Shown piece by piece: positions 38,754-42,398 of a stretch of DNA of 64,000 nt. The translations under genes and the position numbers were made by a program. The notes below the pieces were generated by a model. It worked only from the letters and a program-made list of their open reading frames with translations, was not told the origin of the DNA and did no database searches. The DNA lies in the NCBI RefSeq assembly GCF_030580935.1, contig NZ_JAUQOM010000007.1, positions 124,001 through 188,000 on the forward strand, written 5' to 3'. Each line of letters opens with the position of its first letter. Position 1 is the first letter of the stretch. Source of the DNA: Sphingobium cyanobacteriorum (GTDB lineage: Bacteria; Pseudomonadota; Alphaproteobacteria; Sphingomonadales; Sphingomonadaceae).

Positions 38754-39392
38754 ATGCTTACCAGGCTCTACCAATGGACGCTGGCGAAGGCCGCGCACCG
38801 CCACGCCGAACGCTGGCTTTTCGCCATCAGCTTCATGGAATCGAGCTTCTTCCCGATCCCGCCGCATCCGCTGCTGGGCCTCATGTGCCTCGCCCGCCCG
38901 GAAAAGGCGCTCCGCTTCGGCTTCATCTGCACCCTCGCTTCGGTGCTGGGCGGGCTGCTGGGCTATGGCATCGGCCATTTCCTCTATGAAACGGTGGGAC
39001 AGCAGATCCTGTCCGCGCTCGGCCTCGCCGCCAAATTCCCGGTCGCCGCCTGCTATCTGCGCGATTACGGCGCGGAAATCATCCTGATTAAGGGCGCGAC
39101 GCCGATCCCGTTCAAGCTCATCACGATCACGGCGGGCTTTGTCGGCCTGTCGCTCGTCACCTTCCTCTGGGCCAGCATCCTCAGCCGCGCCTTCCAGTTC
39201 ATGTTGGTCGGTTTCCTGTTCTGGAAATTCGGACGGCCGATCAAGGCGTTCATCGAAAAATATCTCGCCCTGCTGTCGGCCGCCTTCCTCATCCTGATCG
39301 TCGGCGGCTTCATCGCCGCCTCGATGCTGACCGGCGGCGGGAAGAAGGACGACAAATGCTCCCACGCCACCATGGCGTCGATCGGCCGTTAA
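38754..39392 (+). CDS. YqaA/DedA-like SNARE-associated membrane protein
   Basis: The 212-residue membrane protein has the VTT/SNARE-associated motif: the SFMESSFFPIPPHPLLG segment near the N-terminus and IKGATPIPFKLITITAGF, where the re-entrant glycine-rich loop lies. YqaA-type proteins are relatives of DedA and may flip lipids. It reads into lnt, 8 bp away, in a probable operon. Confidence 0.88.
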   Translation: MLTRLYQWTLAKAAHRHAERWLFAISFMESSFFPIPPHPLLGLMCLARPEKALRFGFICTLASVLGGLLGYGIGHFLYETVGQQILSALGLAAKFPVAACYLRDYGAEIILIKGATPIPFKLITITAGFVGLSLVTFLWASILSRAFQFMLVGFLFWKFGRPIKAFIEKYLALLSAAFLILIVGGFIAASMLTGGGKKDDKCSHATMASIGR

Positions 39393-39400
39393 GGGGCCTC

Positions 39401-41056
39401 ATGCGCATCCTCCTCGCCCGGCCCAAGCTGGTCGCCCTGCTCGCCGGCTTCCTCTCGGCAACCGGCTTTGCCCCCTATAATCTCTGGCCCGTCACCCTCG
39501 CCTGCCTGATCGCGCTGATCCTGGTGATAGAGGATGCCCCCGACCGCCGCGCCGCTTTCCTGCGCGGCTGGCTGTTCGGCGTCGGCCATTTCACGTGTGG
39601 CCTCAACTGGATCGCCCACGCCTTCACCTTCCAGGACTCGATGCCGCACTGGTTCGGCTATGGCGCGGTCATCCTGCTGTCGCTGTACCTGGCGGTTTTC
39701 CCAGGATTTGCGACGCTGGGCGCATGGTGGCTTTGCAATTCCTCCCCTTTAAGGGGAGGGGGACCGCCGCGTAGCGGTGGTGGAGGGGTGCCCACCTATC
39801 GAGAGGACGACACCCCTCCGTCATCGCTTCGCGATGCCACCTCCCCTTGCAGGGGAGGATCGGCGTTCCTCCCACTTCCCCTCTTCCTCGCCGCCACCTG
39901 GCTCGCCACCGAATATCTGCGCGCCACCCTCTTCACCGGCTTTGCCTGGAACCCGCTGGGCGCGATCCTGCTGCCCACCGGCATGGCGATCGGCGCGACG
40001 CTGATCGGCACCTATGGCCTGGGCGCGCTGACCATCCTCGCCGCCGGGGCGATCCTGCTGGCGCTCCGCCGTCAGGTCCGCCCCGCTGCCGCGATCCTCG
40101 CCCCCCTCGCCGCGCTCGTCCTGTGGGGCCTGCTCGCCCCTGCCCCCGCCACGCCCTCCGGCGCGCCGCGCGTCCGCATCGTCCAGCCCAATATCGGCCA
40201 GGACGAGAAATATTCGGTGGAGGCGGAATATCGCAATTTCCGCAAGCTCACCGCCCTTTCCGGCCAGCCCCGCCCGGCCCCGCGCCTCATCTTCTGGCCC
40301 GAAGCCGCGATCCCCGCCTATCTCGACATGGAACCCGACTGGCGCGCGCGCCTTGCCGGCCTGCTCGGTCCCGGCGACCTGCTGCTGACCGGCGGAGACA
40401 AGGTTTATTTCAAGCCGGTCGAACAGGACGGCGTCCTCGTCAACAAACTGGTCGGCGCGAACAACAGCGTCTGGATCGTCACCCCCCGCGCCACCATGCT
40501 TGGCCGCTATGACAAGGCGCATCTGGTCCCCTATGGCGAATATCTGCCGATGCGCGGCATCCTCGAACCGATCGGCCTGTCGCGACTGGTGCCGGGCGAC
40601 GCGGATTTCTGGCCCGGCCCCGGCCCGCAAAGCCTGACGCTCCCGGCGACGCTCGGCCGCCCGGCACTGAAAATGGGCGTGCAAATCTGTTACGAGATCA
40701 TCTTCTCAGGCCATGTGATCGACGCCGCCAACCGCCCCGATTTCCTCTTCAACCCGTCCAACGACGCCTGGTTCGGCAATTGGGGTCCGGTCCAGCATCT
40801 GGCGCAGGCCCGCCTCCGCGCGATCGAAGAGGGCATTCCCATCATCCGCGCCACCCCCACCGGCGTCTCCGCGATCATCGACGCGCGTGGCCAGGTCGTC
40901 CACGCGCTCGGCCTTCACCGCGCGGGTTTCCTCGACGCCGGCCTGCCCCCCGCGCTGCCGCCCACGCTGTTCGCGCGGCTGGGCAACTGGGCACCGTTGG
41001 CGCTGATGCTCCTGCTGCTCGGCGCGGCCCTTGCGCTCCGCAAAGGCAAAAGCTAA
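39401..41056 (+). CDS. lnt: Apolipoprotein N-acyltransferase with in-frame repeat insertion
   Basis: The 551-residue enzyme adds the third acyl chain to lipoproteins. The nitrilase-type triad is complete: glutamate in WPEAAIPAY, lysine in RYDKAHLVPYGEY and cysteine in VQICYEIIFSG. Six to eight membrane helices form the N-terminal half. Residues about 114-153 (SPLRGGGPPRSGGGGVPTYR and after) are coded by a palindromic repeat inserted in frame between two helices. This makes the protein longer than usual by about 40 residues. Expression with metK downstream is likely (57 bp). Confidence 0.93.
   Translation: MRILLARPKLVALLAGFLSATGFAPYNLWPVTLACLIALILVIEDAPDRRAAFLRGWLFGVGHFTCGLNWIAHAFTFQDSMPHWFGYGAVILLSLYLAVFPGFATLGAWWLCNSSPLRGGGPPRSGGGGVPTYREDDTPPSSLRDATSPCRGGSAFLPLPLFLAATWLATEYLRATLFTGFAWNPLGAILLPTGMAIGATLIGTYGLGALTILAAGAILLALRRQVRPAAAILAPLAALVLWGLLAPAPATPSGAPRVRIVQPNIGQDEKYSVEAEYRNFRKLTALSGQPRPAPRLIFWPEAAIPAYLDMEPDWRARLAGLLGPGDLLLTGGDKVYFKPVEQDGVLVNKLVGANNSVWIVTPRATMLGRYDKAHLVPYGEYLPMRGILEPIGLSRLVPGDADFWPGPGPQSLTLPATLGRPALKMGVQICYEIIFSGHVIDAANRPDFLFNPSNDAWFGNWGPVQHLAQARLRAIEEGIPIIRATPTGVSAIIDARGQVVHALGLHRAGFLDAGLPPALPPTLFARLGNWAPLALMLLLLGAALALRKGKS
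39741..39859. repeat. Palindromic repeat inserted within lnt coding sequence
   Basis: CCTCCCCTTTAAGGGGAGG (39741-39759) at the left end and CTCCCCTTGCAGGGGAG (39841-39857) at the right end are each self-complementary, and inner parts GGAGGGGTG and CACCCCTCC are inverted too. It is a composite palindrome of about 119 bases. Similar elements are common between genes in sphingomonads (general knowledge). Here it is read through in frame as about 40 codons. Confidence 0.8.
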
Positions 41057-41113
41057 TAGGCACATAAAGTTTTCTTTATATCCTTTAGTCCGTCCTAGTC
41101 TTACGGGAGTCTC

Positions 41114-42313
41114 ATGCGTAGCCAATTCCTCTTCACCTCGGAATCCGTGTCCGAAGGCCATCCCGACAAGGTCGCTGACCAGATTTCCGACTCGATCGTC
41201 GATCTCTTCCTGTCGAAAGACCCCGAAGCCCGCATCGCCTGCGAAACGCTGACCACGACCCAGCTCGTCGTCCTGGCCGGAGAAATCCGCTGCAAGGGCG
41301 TCTATGAAAATGGCGCCTGGGCGCCCGGCGCCAAGGAAGAGATCGAAGCCACCGTCCGCGAAACGGTCAGGCGCATCGGCTATGAGCAGGACGGCTTCCA
41401 CTGGCAGACCTTCCGCTTCGAAAACAACCTCCACGGCCAGTCCGCCCATATCGCCCAGGGCGTCGATGAAAGCGGCAACAAGGATGAAGGCGCCGGCGAT
41501 CAGGGGATCATGTTCGGCTATGCGTCGGACGAAACCCCCGACCTCATGCCCGCCACTCTCTATTACAGCCACAAGATCCTGGAACGCATGGCCGCCGACC
41601 GCCATGCCAAGGTCGTCGACTTCCTGGAGCCCGACGCCAAGAGCCAGGTGACGCTCGAATATGTGAATGAAAAGCCGGTCCGCGCCACCGCCCTGGTCGT
41701 CTCGACCCAGCACGCCGCCGGCATGGACAATGACGAAAGCCGCGCCAAGCTGCGCGATTACGTCAAGGGCGTGATGGCCGACATCCTGCCCGAAGGCTGG
41801 CTGCCGGGCGATGAAGCCATCTATGTCAACCCGACCGGCCTGTTCGAAATCGGCGGCCCGGACGGCGACGCTGGCCTCACCGGCCGCAAGATCATCGTCG
41901 ACACCTATGGCGGCGCATCGCCCCATGGCGGCGGCGCGTTCAGCGGCAAGGACCCGACCAAGGTTGACCGTTCGGCCGCCTATGTCACCCGCTATCTGGC
42001 GAAGAACATCGTCGCCGCGGGCCTTGCCCGTCGCTGCACGATCCAATTGAGCTACGCGATCGGCGTCGCCGAACCGCTTTCGCTCTATGTCGACCTGCAC
42101 GGCACCGGCACCGTCGAAGCCTCCGCCATCGAGGCGGTCCTGCCGACCCTGGTGCGCCTGACGCCCAAGGGCATCCGCACCCATCTCGGCCTCAACAAGC
42201 CCATCTACCAGAAAACCGCCGCCTACGGCCATTTCGGACGCACGCCCGAAGGCGATTACTTCCCCTGGGAAAAGACCGACCTAGTCGACGCGCTCAAGGC
42301 CGCTCTGGCCTGA
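41114..42313 (+). CDS. metK: S-adenosylmethionine synthetase
   Basis: The 399-residue enzyme has the N-terminal [20 protein letters not shown] motif, [12 protein letters not shown], the [16 protein letters not shown] phosphate-binding loop and the late YGHFGR segment. It makes SAM from methionine and ATP. The 57-bp leader has a small stem (ATAAAG-TTTT-CTTTAT, 41064-41079). No SAM riboswitch pattern was seen. A palindrome and a strong terminator follow. Confidence 0.97.
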
Positions 42314-42315
42314 TC

Positions 42316-42337
42316 CCCCTCCCGCATGCGGGAGGGG
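42316..42337. repeat. Perfect 22-bp GC palindrome after metK
   Basis: The sequence is CCCCTCCCGC joined by AT to GCGGGAGGGG, a perfect palindrome two bases past the metK stop. It opens a stretch (to about 42,390) with GCGCGCGCAGCGCG, typical of sphingomonad intergenic repeats. It could add to termination. Confidence 0.5.
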
Positions 42338-42398
42338 CAGCGAGACTTGCGCGCGCAGCGCGTCAGTTGCGGCGGGGCGGGCACAGCGCCCAACCCCA

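Follow-up and report, generated by a model that had tools for sequence, protein, structure and literature searches.

Palindromic repeats that are translated as part of a host protein have been described in Rickettsia. The Rickettsia palindromic elements (RPEs), as presented in the portions of the literature available to us, are dispersed sequences of 100 to 150 bases that lie in frame in conserved genes and fall in solvent-exposed areas of the products, and palindromic elements occupy the same region of the biotin ligase genes of Wolbachia and Rickettsia (PMC2229807; PMC3767692). The Rickettsia japonica paper, in the part that we consulted, records orthologs whose corresponding loci hold different RPE groups; its authors favored a common origin of RPE-4, -6, and -7 and left hotspots open (PMC3767692). 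According to the sections available of another study, CGTC and GTAG REPs are sometimes intragenic in many bacteria, among them S. alaskensis and E. lithoralis, CGTC REPs predominate in alphaproteobacteria, and one same-site case is known, in recB of two Xanthomonas species (PMC3733652). A further structured repeat of alphaproteobacteria, the Caulobacter CIR, measures about 110 bases, is intergenic, carries GANTC sites and stop codons in all frames, and is described in the accessible text as not found intragenically (PMC2229807).

The locus studied here belongs to a window of 64,000 nucleotides from Sphingobium cyanobacteriorum, by which we mean the whole stretch of DNA that was analyzed; its genome (4.49 Mb, 72 contigs) is called G000 below. 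The gene of interest, lnt, encodes an apolipoprotein N-acyltransferase and is the only one of its kind in G000 at an E value of 1e-80 or lower. Its product scored 237 bits against TIGR00546 (cutoff, 132.9) in a profile search and has both the LNT_N (PF20154) and the nitrilase-type CN_hydrolase (PF00795) domains together with a Glu-Lys-Cys triad. The triad residues, Glu301, Lys372, and Cys430, align with E267, K335, and C387 of E. coli Lnt and showed no variation across 40 aligned Lnt proteins, in agreement with the initial annotation, which had called the catalytic residues intact. An AlphaFold2 model of the protein (mean pLDDT, 86) had E. coli Lnt (5vrg) as its top fold match. The coordinates of the features discussed are collected in Table 1; the names of the neighboring genes, such as metK and fliP, are those that we presume from their sequences.

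Table 1. Features of the lnt region, in positions of the window
Feature	Positions	Strand	Basis or remark
lnt, apolipoprotein N-acyltransferase, 551 aa, frame intact	39401..41056	+	TIGR00546; PF20154 and PF00795; fold match
Transmembrane helix 4, end (model helix, residues 99-113)	39695..39739	+	AlphaFold2 model; helix numbering via E. coli Lnt homology
Family A palindromic repeat, 120 bases, in-frame residues 114-153 (SSPLRGGGPPRSGGGGVPTYREDDTPPSSLRDATSPCRGG)	39740..39859	+	Sequence, arms, fold, dispersed copies
Outer arm, 5' side, with 19-base hairpin CCTCCCC-TTTAA-GGGGAGG	39740..39762	+	87% complementary to 39837-39859
Inner inverted repeat, arms 39768-39800 and 39801-39833	39768..39833	+	76% complementary
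Outer arm, 3' side	39837..39859	+	87% complementary to 39740-39762
Transmembrane helix 5 (model helix, residues 158-179)	39872..39937	+	AlphaFold2 model, E. coli alignment
Family B copy just downstream of metK-like gene (41114-42313)	42316..42381	+	G000:C67:166316-166381, 79% identity to the lnt copy of L112

A composite palindrome inside lnt, with the reading frame running through it, had been proposed from the sequence, and this description holds: the element makes up exactly 40 of the 551 codons, and the lnt frame crosses it without a stop codon. Of the extent first given, 39741-39859 or about 119 bases, the end was right and the start was one base late. The RNA of positions 39738-39862 is predicted to fold at -84.2 kcal/mol, against a mean of -51.9 for shuffled sequences (z = -7.6), and none of 200 dinucleotide shuffles folded as well. 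The element is thus an imperfect palindrome within the 100- to 150-base range that has a strong stem-loop, lies in frame in a gene whose relatives include forms without it, and leaves the conserved residues in place. An Rfam search at gathering thresholds over positions 39300-41200 matched no family, and a simple pattern count in the window (4 matches with up to 3 mismatches, all 4 in fact without mismatch, versus 3.06 expected) is not informative alone.

As the initial annotation had it, the insert sits between two membrane helices of the protein, and the model places it as coil of low confidence (pLDDT of about 50). Residue 157 of the window Lnt aligns with residue 122 of the E. coli protein, and the start of helix 5 aligns with residue 123. 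Since Arg123 of E. coli Lnt has been placed at the cytoplasmic end of H5, as stated in the part of the structural paper that we consulted (PMC5500888), the loop between helices 4 and 5 is predicted by homology to be cytoplasmic. The suggestion that the repeat may create new loops needs rewording: it lengthens an existing loop and does not create one.

The palindrome has dispersed kin in its own genome, as had been anticipated, and a chance origin is excluded because of these copies. BLAST gave 36 family A matches in G000 at an E value of 1 or lower, 17 of them below 2e-6; they trace to about 26 places, of which some are fragments; the lnt copy is among the 36, and a place that matched on both strands counts twice. 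Thirty loci were read with their flanks, of which 9 overlapped others, leaving 21 places, while 5 further places without a locus were left out. With an intragenic filter based on GC content by codon position and ORF length, lnt was the only convincing intragenic copy among these 21. Absence of the repeat from the rest of the genome, which would have spoken against the proposal, was not what we saw. Copies in L009, L010, L011, L014, and L025 fall in open stretches that are short, antisense, or 5'-terminal, and we judged them to be spurious or upstream of the start. Family A also occurs on sphingomonad plasmids (17 records, 176 places); at the best place of each of the 17 records, a named feature lay under 2 and none under 14, and one record was unannotated, the gene table being incomplete.

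Compared with an RPE, the window repeat is alike in its way of working, being a dispersed palindrome of similar size placed in frame in a conserved gene. It differs in that the other places read in G000 are not convincingly intragenic, whereas RPEs proper have many in-frame copies in different genes of one genome; the likeness to Rickettsia that had been claimed stands in this restricted form. It resembles the Caulobacter CIR in being a structured repeat of similar size from an alphaproteobacterium and is unlike it in having an open frame and no GANTC between 39740 and 39859. With respect to CGTC-tagged REPs, family A has, by reading, a single CGTC, and the stem behind it is about 5 bases long, short of the usual 8 to 9. 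Family D, found in relatives, shows by reading the CGTC tag with a stem of 8 bases, a loop of 4, and a tail of 3, as well as a second, oppositely oriented unit. Among the top listings of open-licence articles in PubMed Central, we found no account of repeats in lnt or of dissimilar families succeeding one another at a single site. Both S. alaskensis and E. lithoralis are sphingomonads. The view that in-frame elements are rarely described in this group has to be qualified in that intragenic REPs have already been reported from these two species, at least in the text that was available (PMC3733652).

We then determined how the same loop is filled across the genus. All 94 genomes searched had lnt, and the loop could be read and aligned in 89, none of which showed a frame break. 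A recognized palindromic repeat was present in 37 of the 89 loops, at full length in 32. The remaining 52 had no recognized element; their slice of the alignment held 18 to 31 residues (median, 21) and that of the window 58, so that a loop of equal length in all relatives, which would have spoken against an insertion, was not what we saw. Insertions of at least 6 residues opened at residue 117 in 35 of the 89 rows and at any other position in no more than 3. Beyond the 89 loops, G021 carries a B2-type repeat with a nested insert in lnt, the contig of Sphingobium sp. Ant17 (L099) has B2 in the loop, the G032 contig begins within a family A repeat, and those of G041 and G067 do not extend to the loop. 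The clean 40-residue gap expected in close relatives was seen against short loops only, such as those of L125 and L127 (21 residues versus 58), which are 86% identical to the window Lnt over residues 155-551; many other relatives hold a different repeat there. For the window copy, no empty site with otherwise near-identical flanks was found in the genus set, and its sister in the tree, L104, carries B.

Elsewhere in Lnt, insertions at residues 224-239 (L160, L162, and L169) were considered as repeats and rejected, having no palindromic fold. In L177 (G074:C31), a palindrome that is partly F-like (family F is described below) occupies the loop between helices 2 and 3 (z = -5.5); an F query found that insert as its sole match in G074 (28 bases, 89%). 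In L102 (G101), both outer arms of the family A repeat are changed relative to L101 with hairpin pairing kept, by reading, which suggests arm correction or replacement by another copy.

For convenience, the repeats in the loop are called families A (the window type; L109 has a subtype, A2), B, B2, C, D, and E. Families were first told apart by eye, and the assignments were then checked with alignment scores, for which 60 mononucleotide shuffles served as the reference; five half-hairpin loops (L133, L136, L137, L142, and L151) were put in C by eye. Families A, A2, B, C, D, E, and F are dispersed in their own genomes. In counts that include the lnt copy and both-strand matches, A2 had 22 matches in G072; B had 16 in G089 and 30 in G090 (16, 30, 6, 7, and 4 in the five genomes with B in lnt) and 2 in G000; C had 67 in G095 and between 0 and 70 in nine genomes searched earlier; D had 74 in G055 (74, 27, 11, and 19 over four genomes); and E had 14 in G014. 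In the window, a B copy lies about 2.5 kb downstream of the lnt loop (Table 1), and three relatives have one at the same distance (G089:C5:715942-716011, G090:C36:1084835-1084902, and G043:C34:135915-135965).

Among the copies read, intragenic ones are rare apart from lnt, since 23 copies of C, 7 of B, and 36 of D together with two C places gave no convincing interior case. Specifically, 24 C copies were read in G095, where the filter let through lnt and five further ORFs; on reading, these five were rejected as upstream of a start (L215 and L225) or antisense (L217, L218, and L223). Five of the 12 B loci were lnt itself, and the other 7 had no interior ORF. The 36 D and C loci (16 from G000 and 20 from G055, taken from more) yielded 13 ORFs in 11 loci that passed, none convincingly interior. 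As a separate observation, a family D repeat on the minus strand ends directly before a gene that we take to be fliP in two species (L242, G000:C1:680055-683087; L261, G055:C4:854372-857462), with an in-frame Met at the repeat end just before the signal peptide, and the repeat may supply the start codon. Similarly, a family C repeat stands in an open frame right before the apparent signal peptide of the same protein in two species (L225 in G095 and L249 in G000).

Pairs of close relatives bear on how the loop came to be filled. L109 (A2) and L114 (C) have an identical 18-base upstream flank and neighboring DNA that is 94 to 95% identical, yet their repeats are dissimilar (z = 1.0); the same is true of L103 (C) and L105 (B), with flanks 90 to 94% identical (z = 0.2), and of L115 (D) and L118 (B2), with flanks 95 to 96% identical (z = 2.7). 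These pairs contradict descent of all the loop repeats from one ancestral insert, and the tested families have dispersed copies in their own genomes, which also argues against it. Common ancestry is tenable only for the deep relationships among A, B, and E: a GC-rich outer hairpin is common to A, B, B2, and E, and a core to some C and D repeats (z of about 4 to 11 in several pairs). One pair across these two superfamilies, L105/L120, reached 4.0. As an account of the loop, we regard common ancestry as extremely improbable.

To count changes, we used a quick tree of the 89 Lnts with the loop omitted, in which 27 of the 86 inner branches had support below 80. Parsimony with eight states gave 24 changes, or 21 when branches with support below 95 were collapsed and resolved most favorably. 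Presence versus absence of a repeat alone required 6 to 8 changes, and changes of repeat type, with all gains and losses counted, came to 17 to 24. Because of the shared core and the shared outer hairpin, the count was repeated with two superfamilies (three states), which required at least 14 to 18 changes, or 11 to 15 without the five half hairpins. Among the 32 fully occupied rows, switches of superfamily numbered 6 to 8, close to the shuffled means of 7.6 to 9.5, and superfamily identity therefore carries little phylogenetic signal. Taken on the tree as it stands, these counts point to more than one insertion event at the lnt loop.

Could something in the loop draw the repeats in? A DNA feature of the loop, or a resident palindrome, acting as a target for further repeats would fit the narrow range of starting points (counted from the beginning of the aligned slice, 27 of 30 measured repeats start at 17 to 24 bases and the other three at 9, 30, and 35) and the excess of type changes over those required by occupancy. 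It would also fit the filling of the same loop in five lnts of three other genera and the nested inserts in L106, L120, L123, and L162; in these and in L190, a second small insert lies within the lnt repeat with the frame unbroken. No target motif was seen by inspection, however, and the same pattern is expected from tolerance here and purifying selection elsewhere. A Y1 transposase (PF01797, with RAYT and IS200-type proteins pooled) was matched in just 23 of the 94 genus genomes, with one match in G000, and is not supported as a general mover. We consider such targeting unlikely. In a stronger form, the resident palindrome would be a landing pad through which later unrelated repeats enter or replace it by a targeted process, which seems to us improbable; if it were true, most of the short-repeat families found in Sphingomonadaceae would use one codon position of an essential gene in common as their integration site.

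The inserts of families A and B resemble those of other lnts more than copies in their own genomes (for B, one own copy per genome was compared). The window insert, for instance, matches the lnt of L101 at 105 of 114 positions and the best of 14 own-genome copies at 106 of 118. Part of the pattern may therefore be inheritance or exchange, and it is conceivable that a few old insertions occurred and that homologous recombination between the lnt alleles of different species has scattered the loop. L105 and L116 match at 110 of 121 positions in the loop with flanks at merely 0.80 to 0.85, and L106 and L162, which are distant on the tree, carry the same nested composite. If loops had moved in this manner, flanks next to repeats of the same family should be unusually alike. 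In 86 same-family pairs, the differences in likeness were -0.029 upstream (up60 minus up300) and +0.049 downstream (down60 minus down900), and in 220 different-superfamily pairs they were -0.035 and +0.044, that is, there was no excess in the same-family pairs (L189 and the half hairpins were left out). The comparison offers no indication that the loop was exchanged recently, although exchanges over short stretches may still have taken place. Moreover, own-genome matches were slightly better for C in L114 (62/66 versus 60/66) and for D in L115 (75/85 versus 70/86). Exchange as the chief source of the scattered pattern is possible, and we are doubtful of it.

We also asked whether the insert serves the cell, either through its charge as a linker in the cytoplasm or, at the mRNA level, through a hairpin that would delay translation between the two membrane helices. 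The strong fold of the window insert, shared by many other occupied loops, would suit such a role. On the other hand, 52 of the 89 genus loops lack a recognized element, and the folds of L104, L108, L147, and L160 are not clearly better than those of shuffles (z = -0.4 to -1.6). In eight representatives, the frames in use have a net charge of -1 to +2, and the alternative open frames in these repeats often carry more charge. Codon positions 1, 2, and 3 differed at 267, 223, and 235 sites among same-family inserts (808 codon comparisons), compared with 2,215, 1,487, and 4,896 in the rest of lnt (15,430 codon comparisons); the counts are summed over 33 nonindependent pairs, and the insert alignments are rough. 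With this even spread and the lost folds, the insert looks tolerated rather than selected as a peptide or a hairpin, and a selected role is in our estimation very unlikely. Judged by codon positions, the inserts lack constraint at the protein level. The window insert is probably translated and nearly neutral.

Two neighboring genes served as controls. In 69 loci, neither the adjacent membrane protein gene (50 with a match) nor the gene presumed to be metK (67, of which 65 nearly whole) had an insertion of more than 13 residues or one recognized as a repeat. Insertions of 6 to 13 residues occurred in metK in four cases, and one membrane-gene match runs past a stop codon.

Outside the genus, 248 genomes of other genera had an lnt match, and 60 were fetched in a nonrandom and therefore biased manner, all 14 of the listed matches that span the loop being taken first. 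A palindromic repeat occupied the same Lnt loop in 5 of these 60 (L271, L272, L274, L280, and L281), which belong to three genera (g43, g22, and g81). The repeat of L281 is A2-like and is read in a different frame than in Sphingobium. Those of L271 and L274 belong to a further family, F, with 43 and 73 matches in the two genomes. Ten long loops (28 residues or more) of the sample had no palindrome and were not counted. A different kind of loop was seen in L273, L275, L277, and L278 of genus g32, where 58 Arg/Lys-rich residues with a conserved KLKGLIP stand at the same place and are not palindromic; this is perhaps an old insert that has since become fixed.

In the explanation that we consider likely, the lnt loop is a tolerant site that takes up dispersed palindromic repeats and at which one repeat can be replaced by another in a nearly neutral way. 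The insert would be a copy of a repeat that is dispersed and as a rule intergenic. It would have come to lie in the lnt frame, in the loop that joins helices 4 and 5 on the cytoplasmic side, and its 40 codons would be translated as a flexible linker. The loop would face away from the periplasmic active site and appears to tolerate about 11 to 37 extra residues, which would let in-frame, stop-free insertions survive. With several repeat families at hand in Sphingobium and related genera, the loop would have been occupied many times, and one repeat would often have given way to a dissimilar one, either newly inserted or acquired from another lnt allele by exchange. Inheritance may have a part in the pattern alongside these two routes. 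What counts against this explanation is that tolerance alone leaves the frequent hits at the lnt loop unaccounted for, the control proteins being the two neighbors.

In-frame palindromes themselves were already known; the new part is the turnover of dissimilar repeat families at one site. Whether one old, diverged insertion or repeated hits at shared sites lie behind such loci was left open for Rickettsia, as far as the text available to us goes (PMC3767692). The lnt loop differs from the RPE loci in that a single site holds dissimilar families in closely related bacteria, and most of these families have dispersed kin within the genome concerned. With such kin, and with differences between close relatives, the case for different origins is more direct here. 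For one gene, the Sphingobium lnt loop answers the question, since genes that are nearly identical carry dissimilar repeats in this loop. It also offers a natural series of many alleles of one enzyme, from bacteria that are free-living, and makes insertion, replacement, choice of frame, and decay open to study.
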